Source of the DNA: Planctomycetota bacterium | Lineage (GTDB): Bacteria; Planctomycetota; Planctomycetia; Gemmatales; Gemmataceae | NCBI GenBank assembly: GCA_021413735.1 | Contig: JAIOPV010000180.1 | Location: forward strand, 1 to 53,090 | DNA: 53,090 nucleotides | Reading direction: 5' to 3' | Program-made: the position numbers and the translations under genes | Shown: positions 12,692 through 51,011 of the stretch, piece after piece | Position numbering within the stretch: position 1 is the first letter of the stretch | Layout of the letters: every line of letters starts with the position of its first letter | Notes under the pieces: model-generated | What the model was told of the DNA's origin: nothing | Database searches by the model: none | What the model saw: the letters and a program-made list of their open reading frames with translations, nothing else

Positions 12692-13654
12692 ATGGCAGAC
12701 TCGAAGCCGAACACTCAGCCGTCCGGTGACCCAAGCCCGGCGCAGATCAAGAAAGTCTTGATTCCGACCGTTGCGATCGGGGTCGTGATTGTGCTTGTCG
12801 CAGTCATCACCAGCCTCTCGGGTGGCGGTGGTCATGCGATGTCCGACGGTTCCGATGGTTCGGTCGAGGATTCCAAGCTGAAAGAACTCACACCCGGGGT
12901 GAGGTTTCGCGACATTAAAGAAGGGAACGGAGACCTGGTTGCACCGGGCGCGAAGGTGAAGGTTCACTACACCGGCTGGCTTGCCGACGGCACCGTGTTC
13001 GATTCGAGTAAGGACAAGGGCCGAAGTCCGTTAGAGCCGTCGTTGTCGCCGAAAGCACCGCCTGGGCAGGGGGTGATCCAGGGTTGGCAGGAGGGCATTC
13101 CGGGGATGAAGGTGGGCGGCATTCGCAAGCTCGTCATCTCTCCGGACAAAGCGTATGGGAACAAGGCTTCAGCGAAGATTCCCGCAGGCAGCACGTTGGT
13201 GTTCGAGGTCGAATTGTTGGAGACGACGCCCGCTCCGCGTGACCGCCGCTCACCGCTGCCGACCGACCTCACCAAGATGGCCGACGGAAGTTCGCCAACT
13301 GCCGAAGACCCCGGACTGAAGCCGTTGGGCGATGGCGGTTTGAAGTACCGCGATCTCAAGGAAGGCGATGGCCCGGTGGCTCCCGTCGGTGCCAAGGTGG
13401 TGATGGATTACACCGGTTGGCTGTTGAGCGATGGCTCGGTATTCGATTCGAGTTTCAAGCCTGGGAACGACCCGCTCGATATGGGGCTCGAAGGACTCAT
13501 TCGCGGTTGGCAACAGGGCGTTCCCGGAATGAAGGTTGGTGGCATCCGGAAGCTCGTGATCCCCGCGGATCTGGCATATGGAGCGGGTGGCCGGCCAGGA
13601 ATTCCTCCGAACTCGACACTCGTGTTCGAGATTGAATTGCTGGGGCTGAAGTGA
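12692..13654 (+). CDS. Membrane-anchored protein with two FKBP peptidyl-prolyl isomerase domains
   Basis: A 320-aa protein with a short cytoplasmic N-tail, one membrane helix (~21-42, VLIPTVAIGVVIVLVAVI), a linker, and two FKBP-type PPIase domains (~65-175 and ~215-320). Both keep the family core: VHYTGWLADGTVFDSS, VIQGWQEGIPGMKVGG and KLVISPDKAYG in the first; MDYTGWLLSDGSVFDSS, LIRGWQQGVPGMKVGG and GIPPNSTLVFEIELL in the second. FKBPs speed cis-trans isomerisation of Xaa-Pro bonds and assist folding, here presumably on the periplasmic side. GGAG precedes ATG 12692; an earlier frame-open start lies inside the hairpin repeat. Two domains on one anchor are unusual, since most bacterial FKBPs have one. 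Confidence 0.9.
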   Translation: MADSKPNTQPSGDPSPAQIKKVLIPTVAIGVVIVLVAVITSLSGGGGHAMSDGSDGSVEDSKLKELTPGVRFRDIKEGNGDLVAPGAKVKVHYTGWLADGTVFDSSKDKGRSPLEPSLSPKAPPGQGVIQGWQEGIPGMKVGGIRKLVISPDKAYGNKASAKIPAGSTLVFEVELLETTPAPRDRRSPLPTDLTKMADGSSPTAEDPGLKPLGDGGLKYRDLKEGDGPVAPVGAKVVMDYTGWLLSDGSVFDSSFKPGNDPLDMGLEGLIRGWQQGVPGMKVGGIRKLVIPADLAYGAGGRPGIPPNSTLVFEIELLGLK

Positions 13655-20582: not shown

Positions 20583-21023
20583 TCAGCCCTTGCCGATGGC
20601 GTAGAGCGACTTGTCGGTGTTCACATACAAGACGCCATCGGAGACCGAAGGGGTAGAACGAATCGGAGCATCGAGTTCGATTTTTCTGATGAGGACGTGG
20701 TTCTCGACTTGTTTCCGATGCTCGCGGCGGATTTGTCTGGCGACTCTCGCGTTCGCAGCGCCTGCTGCAGCAACCGGATCGGGAAGTGCTGTTGGCGTGG
20801 CGTCATGTCGGAAGATGAAGAGGTCTCCCGCATCGGTTCCGAGAAACACTTTGCTGTCAGCGTCGTACGGCGAGCCCCAATGCTTGCCTTCGTGTCGTAC
20901 TCCCAGAACCTTTGTCCGGTGCAGGCGTCGAGGCACCGTCGAACATGCGGCAGCCGTGCTGGGAAACGGCGTGATCGCGGCGACTCCGGCGAGCACAACG
21001 AAAAGCGCAGCGTGGCATTTCAT
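20583..21023 (-). pseudogene. Remnant of a secreted PQQ-type beta-propeller protein
   Basis: A signal peptide (MKCHAALFVVLAGVAAITPFPSTAAA, from ATG 21023) runs straight into the last part of a PQQ/BamB-like beta propeller; the hundreds of residues expected between them are missing. The propeller motif CLDACTGQRFWEYDTKASI is in a different frame, and the reading frame returns (WGSPYDADSKVFLGTDAGDLFIF) at a one-base loss near 20877-20881. The ending PIRSTPSVSDGVLYVNTDKSLYAIGKG is the normal family C-terminus. An internal deletion plus a frameshift make this a decayed gene. A CCGGAA array (21162-21249) still lies upstream of its start. Confidence 0.75.
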
Positions 21024-21154
21024 GGGCCGACTCGATTCGATGTAAGAGCGTGATTCGAGCAAACGGCGTTGGCCAAAGCGATGATACCGCGTACTGGAAC
21101 CGGTATAACAGCTATGCAAGGTTTCCCGATGGGTGACCGAATTGATCTGATGAT

Positions 21155-21260
21155 GTTTCTTCCGGACGAATGAGATGGTTCCGGGGCTGAAATGATGGTT
21201 CCGGAGCTCTTTTGGATGATTCCGGGGGTGAGGTATGCATCTGGCCCGGAACCAATTTGA
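21155..21260 (-). repeat. CCGGAA-box array, locus 1
   Basis: Five CCGG boxes (starts 21162, 21181, 21201, 21222, 21246). Read on the minus strand the spacings are 24, 21, 20 and 19 bp. The element opens with ATTGGTTCCGG and closes with CGTCCGGAAGAAAC ATCATCAG, like the other two loci. It lies between the divergent PQQ remnant (start 21023) and the DUF202 gene (start 21279). Confidence 0.88.
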
Positions 21261-21278: not shown

Positions 21279-21635
21279 ATGCCTGAGAATGATCCACGAG
21301 TGTTTTTCGCAGCCGAGCGAACGCTGCTGGCCTGGATTCGCACGGGTCTCGGACTCGTCGGCATGGGCTTCGTCGTCGCGAAGTTCGGGCTGTTCTTTCG
21401 CGTCGTTCACCCAAACGCTCCGCACACCGATCAATCGTGGGCTGGCCCAATCGGAATCGCGCTTGCGCTCCTTGGTGCCCTCGCGTCGGCTTCGGCGACC
21501 TGGCAACATCATCGGTTCTGTCGAACGCTCTCAGCCAACGACTTCCCGCGTGCCTACTTCCTGGTACCGGGACTGCTGCTCGGCTTCGGTGTTGCCGTTG
21601 CAGGATTGGTTCTCGCAATGGTTCTTCTGGTGTGA
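21279..21635 (+). CDS. DUF202 / YidH-like small membrane protein
   Basis: A 118-aa inner-membrane protein with three hydrophobic helices. The signature RVFFAAERTLLAWIRTGLGLVGMGF is that of DUF202 (YidH family); helices two and three follow at ~58-78 and ~93-116. The family is widespread and its role is unknown. ATG 21279 has GGAG six bases upstream (21269-21272); a GTG two codons earlier is less likely. It is divergent from the decayed propeller gene across a CCGGAA array, and is followed 59 bases later by the acyltransferase/ligase fusion, likely in one transcript. That would fit a membrane-lipid role, but only by position. Confidence 0.85.
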   Translation: MPENDPRVFFAAERTLLAWIRTGLGLVGMGFVVAKFGLFFRVVHPNAPHTDQSWAGPIGIALALLGALASASATWQHHRFCRTLSANDFPRAYFLVPGLLLGFGVAVAGLVLAMVLLV

Positions 21636-25851: not shown

Positions 25852-26856
25852 TCAGGCCGCTTCCGCGGTCGCGTAAAGCCGAGCGAACCCGCGCTGTTCT
25901 TCTTTCTCCACCAGATCCAAGTACGCTTGCTCCGTCTGCATTCCGACGCTGCGAACCGTGATGAGCGTCACCTTGTGATCCGCGAGCACCTGGAACATCT
26001 GGGCCAGCAGCGAAGCGTTCGGCGTTTCCTCCCCGAGCTTCACATCCAGCCGACGATGTCGCAGCAACACTTGCGTGAAGTCTTTCAGTCCACGCAGCAC
26101 GCCGACCGCTTTCGTGATCGCCTTCTGTTCGCCGTCGAGGTCCAGTTCGTAATGGTTCTTGCGAATGCGGCCCTTCAGGTCTTGCAGCGAGCCGTGGAAA
26201 ATCAACTGACCCTTGTTCAGCACGCACGTGTGGTTGCACACTTCGTCAACGTCGCTCAGGTTGTGACTGCTCAGAATGAGTGTTTTGTCGGCCGCGAGGC
26301 GCTTGATGAGTTCCAACATCGAACGCCGTGCTTCGATGTCCAAGCCGTGCGTTGGTTCGTCCCAAATGAGCAGGTCAGGCTCGTTGATGAGACTCGCCGC
26401 AACTGCAAGCCGTGCCGTCATACCTGGGGTGAAGTGCGACAGCGAATCACCCGAATGCGCGAGTAAATCCACTGCTCGAATCAGCGTCGCGAGCTTCGGT
26501 TTGCGGATGTCGGATGGCAGCCCGAAGAGCCTGGCGATGTAGTCGAGATACGTGATGGGCGTCATGCCCTTCGGGAACTGTGGATTCGTCGGAATGTACC
26601 CGATTCGGCGACGCAGATCGGCCGCGTTCGGGTGCATTTCCTTGCCGAATACCTTCGCCCAGCCTGCGGTCGGGCGGTGCAATCCCAGGATCAGCCGCAG
26701 GAACGTCGTCTTGCCAGCGCCGTTCGGTCCGAGCAATCCCAGCACGCAGCCGGGCTCGATGGTCAGCGACACATCGTTCAGCGCAATCTGCCGGTTCTGG
26801 TAGATCTTGGTGAGATGTTGCGTCTCGACGATAAGTTCAACGTTGTCGCCGGCCAC
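25852..26856 (-). CDS. ABC transporter ATP-binding protein
   Basis: A ~334-aa ATPase subunit pairing with the permease downstream. Walker A is GPNGAGKTT, Walker B LLIWDEPTHGLD, the switch His is in LSSHNLSDVDE, and the Q loop precedes FPKGMTPITYL. The signature motif is the divergent FTPGMTARL where many family members have YSGGMKQRL; the key Gly stays. A ~100-residue C-terminal domain after the ATPase core (AITKAVGVLRGL..., LADHKVTLITVRSVG) is typical of the CcmA/NatA-like group. The best start is GTG 26856 because GAGGGGAGG lies six bases upstream; another GTG occurs at 26895. It is divergent from the PVC dehydrogenase gene across a CCGGAA array. Confidence 0.9.
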   Translation of the reverse strand: MAGDNVELIVETQHLTKIYQNRQIALNDVSLTIEPGCVLGLLGPNGAGKTTFLRLILGLHRPTAGWAKVFGKEMHPNAADLRRRIGYIPTNPQFPKGMTPITYLDYIARLFGLPSDIRKPKLATLIRAVDLLAHSGDSLSHFTPGMTARLAVAASLINEPDLLIWDEPTHGLDIEARRSMLELIKRLAADKTLILSSHNLSDVDEVCNHTCVLNKGQLIFHGSLQDLKGRIRKNHYELDLDGEQKAITKAVGVLRGLKDFTQVLLRHRRLDVKLGEETPNASLLAQMFQVLADHKVTLITVRSVGMQTEQAYLDLVEKEEQRGFARLYATAEAA

Positions 26857-26924
26857 AGCATCCCTCCCCTCTTTTGCGTCGCCCTCAATACCCACGGTGG
26901 CTTACCGAGTCTACGGCAGTTTCA

Positions 26925-27100
26925 CATTGGTTCCGGCCCACTTCCCCACCCCACCCCCGGAATCATCCATTTCAGACCCGGAATCATCCGTTTCAGACCC
27001 GGAACCACCACATTCGCCTCCGGAACCAACCTTCCAGCCCCGGAACCATCATTTCAACCCCGGAACCAATTCACTCGTCCGGAAGAAACTTCATCAGAAT
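26925..27100 (+). repeat. CCGGAA-box array, locus 2 (longest)
   Basis: Eight CCGG boxes start at 26933, 26957, 26978, 26999, 27020, 27040, 27060 and 27079: spacings 24, 21, 21, 21, 20, 20 and 19 bp. Typical units read CCGGAATCATCCATTTCAGA or CCGGAACCATCATTTCAACC. The left end is CACATTGGTTCCGG; the right end is CGTCCGGAAGAAACTTCATC. It fills most of the 309-bp divergent gap between the ABC ATPase start and the PVC dehydrogenase start at 27166. Confidence 0.92.
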
Positions 27101-27165: not shown

Positions 27166-30100
27166 ATGTTTCGCGTTGCCCTCCTGTCGTTGCTCCTCGT
27201 TGCGGGTTCGCTGAATGCACAACCCAACACGCATCAGGTGAAGCTGAACGGTCACACGTTCACGCTCCCGAAAGACTTCACCATCGAACTCGCGGCAGGC
27301 GCAGACCTCGCCCCTCGGCCCATCGTTGCGGCGTTCGACACGCAAGGTCGGCTGTATGTCTGTGATTCGTCGGGTTCGAACGAGAAGACGGCCATTCAAG
27401 TCGAGAAGAAGCCGCACCGCATCGTGAGGCTGGAATCCACCAAGGGCGACGGCAAGTTCGACAAGCAAACCGTGTTCGTGAAGAACGTGATGCTGCCCGA
27501 AGGGGCGATGTGGCTCGACGGCTCGCTCTATGTCGCAGCGCCGCCGCATATCTGGAAGTTCACGGACACGAACAACGACGGCGTCGCGGACAAGGAAGAA
27601 ATCTGGTTCGACGGCAAGACGCTGACCGGTTGCGCGAACGACTTGCACGGCCCATACCTCGGGCCAGACGGCTGGATTTACTGGACCAAGGGTGCGTTCG
27701 CGAAGCAGGAATACACCATCGACCGAAAGAAGTTCACCACGCGGGCGGCGCACATCTTTCGAGCACAACCCGACGGCACGAACCTCGAACACGTCATGAC
27801 CGGCGGCATGGATAACCCCGTCGATCTCGTGTTCACGCCGGGCGGCGACATTATCTTCAGCACGACGTTCTTCCAGCATCCGCGTGACGGCAAACGCGAT
27901 GGCCTCATTCACGCGGTCTATGGCGGCGTCTACGGCAAGGATCACGATGTCGTTTACGATCACCCGTGGACATCGCCGCAACTGATGCCGGTGCTGACGC
28001 ACATGGGGCCAGCGGCTCCGTGCGGCTTGCATCGCCTCGAAAGTGACCAGTTTGGCAAGGAATACGACAACAACATCTTTTGTTGTCAGTTCAATTTGCG
28101 AAAGCTGAGTCGGCACGTGCTTGTGCCAACCGGTTCGACCTACACGACGAAAGACAGTGATTTCGTGGTGTCCGACAACATCGACTTCCACCCAACCGAC
28201 GTGATCGAAGACGCCGACGGCTCGCTGCTCATCGTGGACACCGGTGGCTGGTACAAGTTGTGTTGTCCGACGTCGCAGCTCGTGAAGCCCGACGTGACAG
28301 GTGCCATCTACCGCGTGAAGAAGGTCGGCTCGCACAAGATCGACGACCCCCGTGGCATGAAGATTGACTGGGCGAAACTCGAGGAATCGGAGTTGGGAAA
28401 ATTGCTTCACGATCCTCGGCCAGTGGTTCGGCAGCGCGTGATTGAAGGTATTGGCTACGGAGAAGGTCAGGCACAGCCATTCGACTTGGCGGTCGCGGCG
28501 TTGACGGCGGGCACGACCGAGCGAGGCGTTATCGCTGCGATCTCGCTCCTGGTTCGGGATGGTCGTGCAGTGGCGTATCCGCTCCTCGGGGCGCTTACCA
28601 AAGATCCCCGCGACGACGTTCGCATGGCGGCTCTCCATGCCGTTTCGTTGATGGCTCCGTTCGACGACGCCGTGATTGAAAGGGCGACGTACTCACTGAA
28701 GAGCAAATCGCTTGCAGTGAGGCGAGTGGCCGCAGGTGCGATTGGTCGATCGAAAGCACACTGGGCGGTTCCGGATCTGCTGAAGGCGCTCGCGGATGAA
28801 AAGAACGATCGCGCTCTCGATCACGCTCTGACGTATGCGTTGATCGAGATCAACCATCCGGGGGCCACGGAAGAAGGGCTGAAGCATCCGTCGCCGCGCG
28901 TTCGGCGTGCGACCCTCGCGGCACTTGAGAATATGTCGAAGGCCAAGCTCGAAGCGAAGACCGTTCTCGCGGAACTCGATGCGAAGGATGTGGCACTGCG
29001 TGAAACGGCGTGGTGGATTGCCGGGCGACATCCACAGTGGGGCGATCAACTCGCTGGCTACCTCGGAGACAAGTTCAAGAAGTTCGAGAAGATGACGCCA
29101 CCCGAGCAAGACGAACTCGTCGGGCGTGCGGTGCCGTTCCTGAAGACCGACGCGATTCGCAAGGTTCTCGGCAACGCGCTTCATGGCACAATCGATGACC
29201 AGTCGCAGCGTGCGATTCTTCGCGGCATGGCCCGCTCCGGATTGAAAGCGTTCCCTTCAGAGTGGAAAGACGGCGTTCAACAGGCGCTCATCTCACGCAG
29301 TGCCGATGTGCTGCGAGATGCGGTTGTCGTGCTGCGAACGGTTCCGCCGTCGGCAGCGGACCACGCTGACATCACCGCCAAGGTCGAGAAGTATCGCCGC
29401 ACGACGAACACTCCGCTCGCCAAGGAATTCGTGTATTCGCTGCGTGCAACCGGACCACTCGGTAGCCAACTGACAGCCGACGAAGCCAGGGACGTGATCG
29501 CGGATTTGCACCGTGACCGCGATGGTGCGTTGCGTGGAGCCGCCGCGGAGTTGCTCGCTCGCGGTGCCCTTGTGCCGGAATCGAGCATTGCACTCACAGC
29601 TGCGCTGAAGACCGTCAATCCAGGCGAATTGCCAAAGCTCATCGGCGTGTTCGCGCGATCCACCGATCCCGCGGTTGGGTCCGCACTCGTGAAGGCATTG
29701 CGTGACCCAGCCGTGCGGCCCAGCGTTCGCACCGAGATCGTGAAGCCGATCTTCGACAAGTATCCGAAGACCGTGCAGACCGAGGCCGAGAAGCTCTACG
29801 CGGAACTCGCCGAAGCGCGCAAGGGCGAGACCACGAGGCTCGACAAGATCATCGCGGATTTGAAGCCCGGCGACATTCGACGCGGTCAGTTGGTGTTCAA
29901 CTCGCCGAAGACGAACTGCATTGCGTGTCACAAGGTTGGCTACGTCGGTGGGCTAATCGGTCCTGATCTGACGCGGGTTGGCGGCATTCGCACAGAGCGC
30001 GACTTGCTCGAAGCGATTGTGTTTCCGAGTGCGAGTTTCGTGCGAAGTTATGAGCCTGTGCGGGTAGTCACGACAGACGATCGGGCGTTCAACGGTATTC

Positions 30101-30285
30101 TGAAGAAGGACGCACCGGACGAGATCATTATCGTGGTCGCGGCGGACAAGGAGGAACGGGTTGCTCGTGCCGACGTGGCGAGCATTTCGCCGAGTGCCGT
30201 GTCGCTGATGCCGTCGGGGTTGGATCAGCAATTGTCACCACAGGACTTGGCGGACTTGGTCGCGTTCCTGAAGGCATGTAAATAA
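27166..30285 (+). CDS. PVC-type membrane-bound dehydrogenase with HEAT repeats and C-terminal cytochrome c domain
   Basis: A 1039-aa exported protein typical of planctomycetes and verrucomicrobia. The signal peptide (MFRVALLSLLLVAGSLNA) is followed by a six-bladed propeller, the PVC dehydrogenase domain (~20-390; LYVCDSSG, GANDLHGPYLGPDGWIYWTKG-like, TDVIEDADGSLLIVDTGGWY), then helical HEAT-like repeats (~400-870), and a cytochrome c-like end with CIACH at 918-922 and a likely axial Met1015. Such proteins are thought to oxidise sugars or alcohols in the periplasm and pass electrons through the heme; the substrate is unknown. GGAG precedes ATG 27166. The gene starts right after the CCGGAA array and ends at a long inverted repeat. 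Confidence 0.9.
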   Translation: MFRVALLSLLLVAGSLNAQPNTHQVKLNGHTFTLPKDFTIELAAGADLAPRPIVAAFDTQGRLYVCDSSGSNEKTAIQVEKKPHRIVRLESTKGDGKFDKQTVFVKNVMLPEGAMWLDGSLYVAAPPHIWKFTDTNNDGVADKEEIWFDGKTLTGCANDLHGPYLGPDGWIYWTKGAFAKQEYTIDRKKFTTRAAHIFRAQPDGTNLEHVMTGGMDNPVDLVFTPGGDIIFSTTFFQHPRDGKRDGLIHAVYGGVYGKDHDVVYDHPWTSPQLMPVLTHMGPAAPCGLHRLESDQFGKEYDNNIFCCQFNLRKLSRHVLVPTGSTYTTKDSDFVVSDNIDFHPTDVIEDADGSLLIVDTGGWYKLCCPTSQLVKPDVTGAIYRVKKVGSHKIDDPRGMKIDWAKLEESELGKLLHDPRPVVRQRVIEGIGYGEGQAQPFDLAVAALTAGTTERGVIAAISLLVRDGRAVAYPLLGALTKDPRDDVRMAALHAVSLMAPFDDAVIERATYSLKSKSLAVRRVAAGAIGRSKAHWAVPDLLKALADEKNDRALDHALTYALIEINHPGATEEGLKHPSPRVRRATLAALENMSKAKLEAKTVLAELDAKDVALRETAWWIAGRHPQWGDQLAGYLGDKFKKFEKMTPPEQDELVGRAVPFLKTDAIRKVLGNALHGTIDDQSQRAILRGMARSGLKAFPSEWKDGVQQALISRSADVLRDAVVVLRTVPPSAADHADITAKVEKYRRTTNTPLAKEFVYSLRATGPLGSQLTADEARDVIADLHRDRDGALRGAAAELLARGALVPESSIALTAALKTVNPGELPKLIGVFARSTDPAVGSALVKALRDPAVRPSVRTEIVKPIFDKYPKTVQTEAEKLYAELAEARKGETTRLDKIIADLKPGDIRRGQLVFNSPKTNCIACHKVGYVGGLIGPDLTRVGGIRTERDLLEAIVFPSASFVRSYEPVRVVTTDDRAFNGILKKDAPDEIIIVVAADKEERVARADVASISPSAVSLMPSGLDQQLSPQDLADLVAFLKACK

Positions 30286-42915: not shown

Positions 42916-45759
42916 TCATTCCAGAGGTTTCGGAGCGAGTTCTCGCAACAGTTCCTGGAAATCAGGTCGCTTGGATAGCGGCTTGAATTCGGGAAGTGCC
43001 TCGATCGCTTTCGCGTCACGCATCCCAGCAGTCACGGCACTCCGCAACATTCTGACCGCCTGCTTCTCGATGTACCCAAAGGCGAGTTCGTCGTCGGCCG
43101 TCGGTTTCGGACAACGCCGTCGAACTGCCTGCGCACCCTGCGCCCAGGTTCGAGCCAACCCAAAATCGATCTTTGCCTCCCCCGCTGGCTTCATGTGTTG
43201 GATAAAGGTTGGCGCTAACTGAACTCCGTCCACATTCAGACAGATCCACGAGAGATCCCGAGCAACTGCGAACGTTCTGTCATCCTCGAGCCCCAATCGA
43301 ACTCGAACGGCCAGCGTCTCGCGATACAACAAGATCGACTCGGTGTCGTCGCCACGGTTATGGACGAAGGCTGCCAGGACGTGCAGGCACTCGGAGAACT
43401 GCTCAAGCATTCTGGGTGATGCACTTTTCAGCTTGCGATGGATGCGCACCGCATCACGCACGGTAACCTCGGCCTCTGCGACGTGGTTCAGATCTCGCTC
43501 ACAACGACCCAGCGTAAGGAGCTTCTGAGCAAGCACGAATGAATCGGGGCCGAACGTTTTTCGGAAACTCGCGACCACGCTGCGTTGGACCTCCAGAGCA
43601 GCCTTGTGATCACCCTGCCGACTCAGGAAATCCGCGAAGCGCTGTCGAGCAGTTGCCACAATACAGTGATCGTGCCCCAACAACTTGGTCGCCCGAACAT
43701 CCGCTTCCTCGTAGAGTTCCCGTGCTCGCTTGGGATTGAAGAATTGCTCTGCTACCTGCGCCTTGATGAACAGGCTCACGATGCCTGAGAAGTCGTTCTT
43801 GCCGCCGATCTTGTCGAGCATCGTGGCCGCTTCACTCAACAACGGCAGTGCCTTGGCAACTTGATCTTGTTGGAACTGCACCTGTCCCAACGCGAGCAAC
43901 ACCATCGCGATTTCGCGGCTTTCGGTGGCACCGTTCTTTCGCCGAATGGCCAAGCACTCTTCCAGGAACTGCTCGGCTTGCGGGAACTCGGTAAGCAGTA
44001 ACTGCTGAATGCCAAAATAGAAGAGCGTATCGCCAACCAGCATATGGTTGTTCCCCAGGTACTTGCGGCGCAAGGCCAGGGCTTGTTCGAACTCCTTGCC
44101 CGCTTGATCCAACTCGCCAAGACTCAGATGCAGCACCCCCAAGGTCTGCAGGCTCATGGAGGTTTCGATGTGATTCTCACCGAATATCTTGAGGCGAATT
44201 TGCAGACCCTCCCGAATCAACGGCTCCGCTTCCTTTGACCTCCCCTGATCGAGATAGACGTCTCCGAGGCAATTCAGCAGCGCCGCCCTTGTGCGGGGCT
44301 TGTCGGTCAGCGAGGTTTTCAGTTTGAGAGCCGCACGGTCGACGATCTCATTCGCGGACAACGAGACCACCCCATCGGGACGTCTCTGAGCGCCGAACAT
44401 CCGACCCGTGAGCGCCAGCGGGTCGGCGTCCTCGAACAACCCCATCAAGAACTGCGACACCGCGTGGGCGGTTTCCCGTTGTTCTTCCGCTTCCTTGCGC
44501 CTTGCCTCGGCGATTCCCTTTTGGTGCTCCGCGTCTTTGCGTCTCTCCTCCGCAACCAGTCGCTGCTGGTCGGCATCCCGCTCATGATCCTCAGCGATTA
44601 GCTTCTGCTTCTCTGCGTATGCACTCTTTGCCTCGGCAATGCTCCTCTGCTGTTCCGCATCGGCGTACTTCCACACGATGCCGCACACGCCCAATACTGA
44701 GACCAGGAGAAGGGCGGCCATGGTTGGCCGACGTCGCGCCCATCTGACAGCTCCCTCGAGCGTGCCGGTCGGCCGCACGGCGATCTGCCTGCCATCGAGG
44801 TAAGCCCGGAGGTCTGACGCCAAGGCTTCCGCCGTGCTGTACCGTTTCCTCGGGTCGGTCTCCATGCACTTCAGACAGATCGTTTCGAGATCTCGGGGGA
44901 TGGCTCGCACGAGTGTCCGCGGCCACGCTGGGAGACCCGCCATGACGAGTTGAATCGTCTCCATCACCGACTCGCCCTTGAACGGCGTGCGACCCGTCAG
45001 CAGTTCGTACAGAATCACACCAAGCGAATACACATCCGTGGCTGTGCCGATTTCACGAGTTCGCCCCGCAGCCTGCTCCGGACTCATGTAATTCGGCGTA
45101 CCCATGATCGCGCCGGTGTCGGTCATTTCCGATTTCCCGACCTTCGCAAGTCCGAAGTCGGTCACCTTGGGTTCGCCATTGGCGTCGAGAAGTACGTTCG
45201 CGGGCTTCAGATCGCGGTGAACAATTCCCTTCGCGTGTGCAGCGGCGACCGCATCGGCCAGTTTCGCCACCATCTCCGCCGCTTCTCGCGGAGCGAACCG
45301 CTTGTCTTCCTGGATTTTCTTGGCGAGCGTGCCACCATCCACGAATTCGAGCGCGAAGTACGGCTGACCGTCGTGCTGCCCGAATTCGTAGACCTGGACG
45401 ACGTTGGGATGCTGAATCAGCGCGACAACTTCCGCTTCGACGAGGAATCGGATTTGAGCCATGGGATCGACATACTGACCGCCGAGGAGCATCTTGATGG
45501 CGGTCGGGCGGTTCAACAGGATGTGACGAGCACGATAGACGACCCCCGTTCCTCCGCGACCGAGTTCATCGAGAATCTCGTAGCCCGTGATAGCGGGCAG
45601 CAGACGGATCATGTTGTGCGAGCGCGAAGCCGCTTGAACGGCTTCGTCTGGAGACTGCACGAGTGTTCCGTCGGGATATGCGACCGACTTCGCAGTATCG
45701 GCTGCTGGTACGGGTGGCACAACCTGCTCAAGTGTATGGTGCGGATCGTGGGGCAACAC
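42916..45759 (-). CDS. Transmembrane Ser/Thr protein kinase with coiled stalk and TPR domain
   Basis: A 947-aa Hanks-type kinase. Kinase domain ~60-330 with LGRGGTGVVYRA, Lys89 (AIKML), HRDLKPAN (181-188), DFG (201-203) and MSPEQAAGR, complete. A membrane helix is near 346-366 (MAALLLVSVLGVCGIVW), followed by a highly regular charged coiled coil (~370-435) with repeats such as AEEQR, ERRKDAEHQ and EARRKEAEE, then a long TPR region of the Kinesin-light-chain type (LGVLHLSLGELDQAGKEFEQALALRRKYLG). The start is GTG 45759, with CGGAGG seven bases upstream. It probably senses or docks partners through the TPRs and phosphorylates cytosolic targets. It is divergent from the secreted HEAT-like gene across a CCGGAA array. 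Confidence 0.92.
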   Translation of the reverse strand: MLPHDPHHTLEQVVPPVPAADTAKSVAYPDGTLVQSPDEAVQAASRSHNMIRLLPAITGYEILDELGRGGTGVVYRARHILLNRPTAIKMLLGGQYVDPMAQIRFLVEAEVVALIQHPNVVQVYEFGQHDGQPYFALEFVDGGTLAKKIQEDKRFAPREAAEMVAKLADAVAAAHAKGIVHRDLKPANVLLDANGEPKVTDFGLAKVGKSEMTDTGAIMGTPNYMSPEQAAGRTREIGTATDVYSLGVILYELLTGRTPFKGESVMETIQLVMAGLPAWPRTLVRAIPRDLETICLKCMETDPRKRYSTAEALASDLRAYLDGRQIAVRPTGTLEGAVRWARRRPTMAALLLVSVLGVCGIVWKYADAEQQRSIAEAKSAYAEKQKLIAEDHERDADQQRLVAEERRKDAEHQKGIAEARRKEAEEQRETAHAVSQFLMGLFEDADPLALTGRMFGAQRRPDGVVSLSANEIVDRAALKLKTSLTDKPRTRAALLNCLGDVYLDQGRSKEAEPLIREGLQIRLKIFGENHIETSMSLQTLGVLHLSLGELDQAGKEFEQALALRRKYLGNNHMLVGDTLFYFGIQQLLLTEFPQAEQFLEECLAIRRKNGATESREIAMVLLALGQVQFQQDQVAKALPLLSEAATMLDKIGGKNDFSGIVSLFIKAQVAEQFFNPKRARELYEEADVRATKLLGHDHCIVATARQRFADFLSRQGDHKAALEVQRSVVASFRKTFGPDSFVLAQKLLTLGRCERDLNHVAEAEVTVRDAVRIHRKLKSASPRMLEQFSECLHVLAAFVHNRGDDTESILLYRETLAVRVRLGLEDDRTFAVARDLSWICLNVDGVQLAPTFIQHMKPAGEAKIDFGLARTWAQGAQAVRRRCPKPTADDELAFGYIEKQAVRMLRSAVTAGMRDAKAIEALPEFKPLSKRPDFQELLRELAPKPLE

Positions 45760-45871
45760 GGGTGCCTCCGATTAGTGGGTGTCGTCGGAAGTGATGATAC
45801 CCGAATTGGCCCGTGACTTCTCGGTAAGTCCCGCTCTCGTCAAGAAACGTTGGGCGAATGTCAATCGGTTT

Positions 45872-45962
45872 TAATCGGTTCCGGACGACATCCCCACCCC
45901 ACGTCCGGAACCATGATTTCAGCCCCGGAACCACCTTATCTGTCCGAAAGAAACTATATCAG
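45872..45962 (+). repeat. CCGGAA-box array, locus 3 (shortest)
   Basis: Boxes start at 45881, 45905, 45925 and, as CCGA, 45944: spacings 24, 20 and 19 bp. The left end reads ATCGGTTCCGG and the right end TGTCCGAAAGAAACTATATC, a slightly decayed form of the ends at the other loci. It lies in the 299-bp divergent gap between the TPR kinase and the secreted HEAT-like gene. Confidence 0.85.
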
Positions 45963-46058
45963 AACCACGGGGTTCGTTGATTGTGCCGAATTTGCTTTGA
46001 CTGTGGGCAAGATGTTACGCACGATTCTGTGGAAAGTCGTGAAGCGGGAGGAGTTGGT

Positions 46059-47129
46059 ATGCGAACTTTGCGAATCATCTTTCTCCTCGGACTAGCGATT
46101 GGCCAGGGGTCATCTCCCGCGAAAGCGGACGACCCCGAAATCGCGATTATTGCTGGCGAAGTCATCAAAGTTGTCGATCCAGAGAAGGGTTTGCACGAGG
46201 CAAGCATCAAGATTCTTCGTGTGTATTCCGGCGATCAAGCTCTGAAGGGAATCACGTTCGTGCAACCGACGGCGAACACAGGGAGCGCTGGCCTTGGGAG
46301 TACCATTGCTCACCCCTTGTTGAAGGTTGGTGAGACTGGCATCTGGTCACTTGTGGTCAACAAAAGTACGGGACGGATGTCGGGCTTATGGACTCATCGG
46401 AAAGGCGAAACCGACAAGGGGAACTACGATCACCGAATCGAATGGGCGGAGATGGTCGAACGGCTCGACAAACTCAATGAGGCGGAACGCTTCAAACTAA
46501 CGAAAGACCTCTGTCGGCATAAGAATCCAACCATTGCTCGCTACGCAGTGTCTACCCTGCACTACACCTCGGTAGCAGTGGCCAAACAGAATGGAGTCGC
46601 GGACTTCCTCATGGCATTGCCCAAAAGTCGCGAGGTCAGCCACTCCGCGCTCGTCGAACTGGATCGAGCGTTCCTTGATGATCGCGAGAAGAAATGGAAG
46701 GACTCCAAAGAACGGAAAGCGTTATTGGAGCGATTCACGGAATTGCTGACGGAGGTGGATGCTGAACAAGTCGCTAAGTATCTCCGGATGAATCAATCAT
46801 TGAGCGATTACGAAGCCTCGGTACTCGTCGAGAAGGTTTTGACCAATCCTCTCCAATCGAAGGCCGTTCGGTGTCTCTTCGTTCGCTCACTGACCGGCAA
46901 ACCCGGCGGCCCGTTCGGAGGGTGCGGTGACTTCGCGTTCGATCTTGTGGTGGGCGTCATCAAGAACGACATTTCCGACGATGTGCGTCTCCAAGCCGCG
47001 CAAGGGCTGGTGTTGGTTGGGCCGAAATTCCGAGCAACTCAACAGACGGCGCTCCGAATTTTGCTCAAGGATGAAACGAACAGCGAGATCGCCGCAGCAC
47101 TTCGCGAGGCCATCGACAAATCGAAGTAA
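46059..47129 (+). CDS. Secreted protein of unknown function with HEAT-like C-terminal part
   Basis: A 356-aa exported protein (signal MRTLRIIFLLGLAIGQGSSPAKA). The N-terminal ~120 residues form a beta-rich domain (AIIAGEVIKVVDPEKG, SIKILRVYSGDQALKG, VGETGIWSLVVN). The rest is helical with HEAT-like pairs (NPTIARYAVSTLHY, SKAVRCLFVRSL, SDDVRLQAAQGLVLVG). GGGAGGAG precedes ATG 46059; the frame is open further upstream but non-coding. A CCGGAA array lies ~100 bp upstream. I do not recognise a family. Confidence 0.7.
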   Translation: MRTLRIIFLLGLAIGQGSSPAKADDPEIAIIAGEVIKVVDPEKGLHEASIKILRVYSGDQALKGITFVQPTANTGSAGLGSTIAHPLLKVGETGIWSLVVNKSTGRMSGLWTHRKGETDKGNYDHRIEWAEMVERLDKLNEAERFKLTKDLCRHKNPTIARYAVSTLHYTSVAVAKQNGVADFLMALPKSREVSHSALVELDRAFLDDREKKWKDSKERKALLERFTELLTEVDAEQVAKYLRMNQSLSDYEASVLVEKVLTNPLQSKAVRCLFVRSLTGKPGGPFGGCGDFAFDLVVGVIKNDISDDVRLQAAQGLVLVGPKFRATQQTALRILLKDETNSEIAAALREAIDKSK

Positions 47130-50819: not shown

Positions 50820-51011
50820 TTCACCCCGAAGGGGTGGGACAACATAGCCCAGGGCGAAGCCGGCGAAGCCCTGGGAACAGTTTGAATATGGTATGCACCC
50901 TGAAAGGGTGCGACAACTCAAGCTGTCCCACCCTTTCAGGGTGCATTTGCTGGGGAATCGGTTTCCTGGGGCGTTGCCCCAGTCTAAGTTGTCCTACCCC
51001 TTCGGGGTGAA
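50820..51011. repeat. Composite palindromic element, CACCCCGAAGGGGTG family
   Basis: Outer arms TTCACCCCGAAGGGGTGGGA.. (50820-50843) and 50988-51011 pair at 23 of 24 bases. Inside are four more hairpins: CACCCCGAAGGGGTG itself, GCCCAGGGC/GCCCTGGG (~50847-50876), GCACCCTGAAAGGGTGC with its inverted partner at 50925-50944, and CTGGGGCGTTGCCCCAG (50966-50982). This is a compound of several dispersed repeats of the CCCCGAAGGGG type. Confidence 0.8.

Follow-up and report, generated by a model that had tools for sequence, protein, structure and literature searches.

Direct repeats of about 19 to 22 bp that act as helically spaced protein-binding sites are known from iteron arrays and from Tn7/Mu-type transposon ends. 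MITEs are described as elements under 500 bp with inverted ends of about 4 to 30 bp and, in younger copies, flanking direct repeats (PMC10969869). Few bacterial MITEs with internal arrays are known; the precedent, and the closest known system to the family described below, is the BrickBuilt MITE of Porphyromonas gingivalis (PMC4596501). In Galileo, a eukaryotic element, the internal repeats hold extra transposase-binding sites (Marzo et al. 2013, as reported in PMC4079207). The open-licence literature yielded nothing on the present family and nothing joining CCGGAA to the term Planctomycet.

The window analyzed here (the whole stretch of 53,090 nucleotides of contig JAIOPV010000180.1, from a Planctomycetota bacterium of the Gemmataceae) carries three arrays of CCGG boxes, whose spacings, given earlier in a sequence-only reading, were confirmed by direct reading (Table 1). 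The pair pattern CCGGAA-N13..16-CCGGAA has 11 matches in the window, 10 inside the arrays and 1 at position 13524, with 0.10 expected and a maximum of 2 among 100 shuffles. The ends of the arrays had been called alike and are better described as similar: each locus carries the 3' end TCCGGAAGAAACWTCATCAGA (mismatches of 0, 0, and 3; 0.00 expected), but array 3 differs in its left end, AATCGGTTCCGG, and in its final box, CCGAAA. Array 2 belongs to the class of cores without inverted ends; its similarity to other copies sets in 12 bp ahead of the left anchor and stops 17 bp beyond the 3' end. No TTGAC was found within the range searched outside the left ends of arrays 1 and 2. All three copies possess the shared core and lack both the inverted ends and the target duplications of the transposon-like branch described below; they are taken as family members by virtue of the common core, their own insertion being assumed.

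Table 1. Positions of the three arrays, their parts, and neighboring features in the window
Feature	Position	Strand	Details
CCGG boxes, array 1	21249, 21225, 21204, 21184, 21165	-	steps 24-21-20-19
Core of array 1	21146..21256	-	left end ATTGGTTCCGG (21256 to 21246); units 21225, 21204, 21184; 3' end 21165 to 21146
DUF202 gene, left end of array 1	21279..21635	+	start codon 23 bp from left-anchor match
Gene on far side of array 1	20583..21023	-	no Pfam match
CCGG boxes, array 2	26933, 26957, 26978, 26999, 27020, 27040, 27060, 27079	+	steps 24-21-21-21-20-20-19
Core of array 2	26926..27098	+	left end ATTGGTTCCGG; 24-bp step; six units of 21/21/21/20/20/19 bp; 3' end CCGGAAGAAACTTCATCAGA
Left anchor of array 2	26926..26936	+	ATTGGTTCCGG; inverted copy of unit start CCGGAACCAAT; consensus from 97 copies
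Six head-to-tail units of array 2	26957..27078	+	starts 26957, 26978, 26999, 27020, 27040, 27060
3' anchor of array 2	27079..27098	+	CCGGAAGAAACTTCATCAGA; class has 99 exact copies in G000, reversed control 0
ABC transporter ATPase gene, left end of array 2	25852..26895	-	
Gene on far side of array 2	27166..30285	+	DUF7133, HEAT repeats, cytochrome c
CCGG boxes, array 3	45881, 45905, 45925, 45944		steps 24-20-19
Core of array 3	45873..45963	+	left end AATCGGTTCCGG; units 45905, 45925; 3' end CCGAAAGAAACTATATCAGA (45944-45963)
Outside box TTGACA near array 3	45859..45864	-	reads away from array, 20 bp from left CCGG
Second TTGAC near array 3	45839..45843		
Protein kinase gene with TPR repeats, left end of array 3	42916..45612	-	
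Gene on far side of array 3	46068..47129	+	no Pfam match; start codon uncertain
Acido-Lenti-1 sRNA match	50822..50875	-	39.9 bits; gathering threshold 37

The window's arrays belong to a dispersed family. Across its whole genome, designated G000, the pair pattern gave 417 matches, compared with 13 for a reversed-pattern control. A search for the 3' end in 19 members of the genus gave 99 copies in G000 and 34 in the congener G008 (reversed control for these two, 0), a single match in one other, and none in the remaining 16; among these members the family is thus restricted to two closely related genomes, apart from that single match. G000 and G008 are syntenic, with a median protein identity of about 84% over 144 pairs. 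A longer pattern searched in 84,980 genomes (one per species, with G000 possibly excluded) matched eight stretches, all from a single organism, DS2.012; the same pattern matched no viral contig, and a viral origin was rejected. Among the 58 relatives searched, a few distant ones besides G008 had modestly more matches to the loose pair pattern than to its control (G019, 19 to 0; G047, 24 to 2; G058, 25 to 7).

Stretches around arrays were fetched from both genomes and, as they were picked because arrays were present, densities within them are not unbiased. A relaxed search returned 186 clusters (133 in G000 and 53 in G008), from which those with a left anchor and a 3' end, or with an exact 3' end, were kept (100 and 38, respectively); the 33 and 15 that were dropped had a left anchor only or an inexact 3' end only. 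Read 5' to 3', the architecture is ATTGRTTCCGG, then 24 bp across C-rich sequence that closes with CACCCCACGT, a variable number of units of the form CCGGAAYCA...TTTCAG.. (20 or 21 bp), one unit of 19 bp with TCGT at its end, and CCGGAAGAAANNNNRTCAGA. Composite elements with sub-arrays, in which two or three 3' ends (≤3 mismatches) come in succession, make up 41 of the 100 from G000.

At the three window loci, the sequence-only reading had the first spacing always at 24 and the last always at 19. This holds for most copies in the window's genome, where 88 of 97 arrays open with a step of 24, 8 with 23, and 1 with 21 (the left-end search pattern already fixes all but the last 2 bases of this interval), and the last is 19 in 81, 20 in 14, and 18 in 2. 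However, in 14 G008 arrays the first step is more often 23 (n = 9) than 24 (n = 5), with the last step being 19 in 13. The internal spacing of 20 or 21 was borne out in 125 of 130 G000 steps, as was the picture of a dispersed family whose ends are nearly fixed while the count of units differs, from 2 to 9 intervals in an array.

Neighboring units in an array are no more alike than units from different arrays, with 21-bp units sharing 0.786 identity when adjacent (22 pairs, of which 1 is identical) and 0.773 across arrays. Growth by local unit gain, suggested earlier, was therefore rejected as a general rule and is retained for single arrays. In L143 (G008:C12, about 115795-115950, minus strand) five identical units CCGGAACCAATGGTTTCAGAC stand in a row, likely a recent local expansion, and L068 carries the variant CCGGAAGAATC in three neighboring units. 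The view of CCGGAA as half of the palindrome TTCCGGAA was abandoned, as TT precedes the box in only 4 of 350 boxes of the listed classes. Among 89 G000 units of 21 bp, bases 8, 9, and 17 are constant in 98 to 99% although they were not used for detection, while bases 10 to 13 vary.

Outside the left anchor, a second motif recurs. In the 65 G000 elements without subfamily flanks, TTGAC was found 39 times within 60 bp of the left anchor, compared with 3.0 expected, and 62 of 119 elements carry it 14 to 60 bp outside the left CCGG. The box reads outward and is found beside gene starts and gene ends alike. When contexts were collapsed to 28, its distances fell at 20 (n = 3), 27 to 30 (n = 12), 37 to 39 (n = 6), and 45 to 51 (n = 5), with one each at 34 and 60. 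The best period was 9 to 10 bp (R of 0.64 to 0.66), with 8 and 10.5 also passing (0 of 5,000 random sets), although the contexts are not fully independent. The near-invariant unit bases and the phased outside box would fit the protein-binding array suggested by the sequence-only reading.

No array core overlaps a predicted gene in either G000 (0/100) or G008 (0/38), the gene finder covering 86% of the G000 stretches. All three window arrays do lie between divergently transcribed genes, as had been pointed out, but this is not general: the 94 elements with both neighbors known occupy 24 divergent, 62 tandem, and 8 convergent gaps, where 28.5, 56.3, and 9.2 are expected from intergenic bases (p = 0.48), which fits random intergenic placement. 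At the family's rate, three of three divergent gaps have a chance of about 0.017. Location inside genes or in convergent gaps, with loss of the terminal spacings, had been named as speaking against the initial reading; convergent gaps do harbor eight elements, but none lies in a gene and the spacings hold.

Orientation is biased in G000. In its tandem gaps 47 elements run against the genes and 15 with them (p = 6e-5), compared with 9 and 9 in G008, and of 94 elements, 71 have a gene start opposite their left end (60% expected; p = 0.002) and 39 have one opposite their right end (p = 0.0003). Distances to gene starts are broad, from 15 to 784 bp. The start-facing neighbors sampled (20 of 73, taken from a shuffled list with some skipped) encode unrelated Pfam domains, from ribosomal L13 to a DNA methylase, and the genes beside the window's arrays are likewise of unrelated function. 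Signal peptides, predicted by a crude rule, made no case for enrichment: start-facing genes had them in 16 of 73 cases on the left and 14 of 39 on the right, versus 378 of 1,618. A shared position at promoters of related genes, kept in relatives, was not found and, with gap types as expected and neighbors functionally unrelated, a divergent-promoter regulon was rejected as a general rule.

One branch of the family, here called type 1, is transposon-like. In G008 its copies have identical-looking flanks with inverted repeats GGGTGTGCCACTGGTTTCCGG as ends, and G000 has similar copies; the inverted ends GGGTGTGCCACT.G.TTCCGG, found in both genomes, contain the array box. Copies are 247 to 249 bp in G008 and 261 to 282 bp in G000, plus one of 411 bp. 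Of 16 two-ended copies, 7 are flanked by exact 9-bp target duplications and 11 by duplications with ≤2 mismatches (swapped-pair controls, 0/240); the other 5 have no alignable duplication at the expected place, two of these showing a shifted repeat of 8 to 10 bp. The branch is thus a typical MITE, short and free of a transposase gene, and box-bearing inverted ends together with 9-bp duplications show that it was inserted by a DDE-type transposition reaction. Neither this branch nor the restriction to two genomes was part of the earlier reading.

Within the family, inverted ends and target duplications are confined to type 1. In 85 of the 100 G000 elements a type-1 inverted end is present on neither side; in 84 elements without inverted ends, direct repeats did not exceed controls, and no convincing target duplications were seen by eye in 16 elements of the second subfamily. 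The number of type-1 copies in G008 is underestimated, since its contigs (e.g., C19, C25, C52, and C92) break about 100 bp within them. In the fetched lone-end stretches and at 21 PF01609 loci, in two fragmented assemblies, no transposase bracketed by matching ends was identified, and PF00872 was absent. At L212 (G000:C123), a 203-amino-acid open frame encodes an ISAs1-type transposase fragment (PF13808 and PF01609) with an exact GGGTGTGCCACC downstream; kinship with the MITE ends is possible but unproven.

Eight syntenic G000/G008 gaps hold an array: three in G000 only, two in G008 only, and three in both. The last (L110 and L141, L115 and L131, and L127 and L130) carry a different subfamily or the opposite orientation in each species. 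These gaps were chosen as array bearing, so three of eight is not an unbiased rate; the window loci are not among them, and some junctions of singly occupied gaps align imperfectly.

The core is better conserved than its surroundings, a contrast inflated by the selection of elements with intact anchors. In the 65 G000 elements without subfamily flanks, most core positions carry about 1.0 to 1.8 bits of information each, and this falls to about 0 to 0.04 bits per base from ~15 bp beyond the 3' end and ~30 bp beyond the left end. The p-distances are about 0.19 to 0.22 in the core versus 0.51 in the flanks for the second subfamily, 0.17 to 0.25 versus 0.38 to 0.65 for G008 type B, and 0.05 to 0.06 versus 0.10 to 0.11 for two-ended G008 copies; in two-ended G000 copies the left anchor is at 0.06 and the flanks at 0.18 to 0.24, the exception being the last unit (0.21). 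Some pairs with cores 95 to 96% alike share neither flank and others share one only, and among 200 pairs with cores ≥90% alike, both flanks were below 50% in 59%. Of 13 G000 matches to the type-1 right module, 11 adjoin an intact core, one, on C89, adjoins a left-truncated core, and the remaining one is on C126. In the C89 copy (L187; G000:C89:6135-6242 and upstream) the right end is intact and the left side is cut off inside a unit. Thus, cores without modules are common and modules without a core are rare, and the family consists of subfamilies that share a core and differ in their flanking modules.

Taken together, we consider it probable that the arrays are the core of lineage-specific, short, nonautonomous mobile elements whose units are protein-binding sites, most plausibly for the transposase or its partner. 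Each 20- to 21-bp unit (CCGGAA-YCA ... TTTCAG) would be a putative binding site for one protein, and head-to-tail units about two helical turns apart, with the inverted left box and the outside TTGAC, would align several molecules on one face of the DNA. The likeliest binder would be the transposase that moved the family or an accessory protein, given that the inverted ends carry the box too. This reading is supported by the excess of the pair pattern over its control, the exact 3' ends (99 and 34; control, 0), the shared inverted ends and 9-bp duplications, occupancy of five of eight syntenic gaps in a single species, the absence of all 138 cores from genes, the unrelated functions of the neighbors, the constant unit bases, and the excess and clustered distances of TTGAC. 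The missing partner transposase, the elements without inverted ends (85/100) or repeat excess (84), and the five two-ended copies without a duplication count against it, and cores that are up to 96% alike yet have unrelated flanks on both sides are not what a simple MITE would give. Also on the opposing side, periods from 8 to 10.5 bp all fit the TTGAC distances, and the left ends that face gene starts fit a host role as well.

That role would be primary if the boxes formed an operator array bound by a host transcription factor or nucleoid protein and kept before genes by selection, with mobility having merely spread it. The contrast between core and flanks, the bias toward gene starts and against tandem genes in G000, and the three gaps occupied in both species by differing subfamilies or orientations speak for this, but G008 shows no orientation bias, divergent gaps hold no excess of elements, the sampled neighbors are unrelated and lie at widely varying distances, the 3' end is absent from 16 other members of the genus, and the three-of-eight rate is biased; we regard it as unlikely. 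It is improbable that the arrays are a minisatellite trapped by a MITE and growing or shrinking by slippage with no role, as proposed for BrickBuilt: the 2 to 9 intervals, the identical units of L143, and the variant shared by neighboring units in L068 would be expected, but the near equality of adjacent and distant units, the single identical pair in 22, the near-fixed end spacings, and the preferred TTGAC distances would not. We give very little credence to a transcribed element folding into a structured RNA, or to an outward promoter with TTGACA as the -35 box driving the left gene. The forward strand does fold more stably than shuffles (mean z of -1.96, compared with -0.94 for the reverse; n = 50), yet the left anchor and first unit do not covary (A:C combinations, 36; A:T, none), and Rfam matched nothing at the array, the sole hit in the whole window at gathering score being Acido-Lenti-1 elsewhere. 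Similarly, TTGAC reads outward and sequences with ≤2 mismatches to TATAAT lie 16 to 19 bp away in 8 cases versus 3.0 expected, but this excess is small and equal at left-neighbor starts (5/47) and ends (3/15), and the box is equally common beside gene ends.

Given the flank mosaic and the tendency of G000 elements to face gene starts, co-option by the host is conceivable. Tentatively, the core may be a portable face-of-helix operator that outlives the transposon and is kept or moved alone while the left and right modules are swapped or lost. If so, the genome would have gained scattered multisite docking arrays beside about a hundred unrelated genes, and the same intergenic gaps could be refilled by a different subfamily in a sister species. 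Planctomycete intergenic arrays beside promoters need not be regulons. The family offers a large natural series of copies with constant boxes but differing unit number (2 to 9 intervals), spacing, and flanking modules, from which one can ask which protein reads the array and whether it is the element or the host that is under selection.

Compared with Tn7/Mu-type ends and iterons, the present family has a target duplication of 9 bp, and its dispersed chromosomal copies argue against an iteron identity. Correia elements of Neisseria are likewise intergenic bacterial MITEs, with their own IHF protein-binding site and promoter activity, and are described without a CCGGAA array (PMC10969869); in the present family a host factor and a promoter are candidates only. 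The foldback elements Galileo and Tetris of Drosophila also hold tandem repeats inside a nonautonomous element, with Galileo setting a precedent for extra transposase sites in such repeats, but they are eukaryotic and their repeats lie within long inverted ends (about 220 bp in Tetris), whereas the array here is internal, short, and single-sided (PMC4079207). BrickBuilt, as described in PMC4596501, shares the most with the present family: both are short, nonautonomous, always intergenic, species restricted, and without an internal transposase, and both have a variable count of internal tandem units between leader and tail flanks with small inverted ends, some copies lacking leader and/or tail. 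BrickBuilt has 19 copies and a 23-nt unit, compared with 100 copies examined here and a unit of 20 or 21 bp, and its ends match IS5-family elements, whereas no partner was found for the present family. The present family is set apart from that description by a first step of 24 or 23 and a last step of 19, both nearly fixed, by a box that recurs within the inverted ends and, in inverted form, in the left anchor, by the 9-bp duplications, and by the TTGAC at preferred distances, and as far as the paper's text shows the two sequences are unrelated. Thus, the family works like BrickBuilt but, its units not being of 23 nt, is not a member of it.
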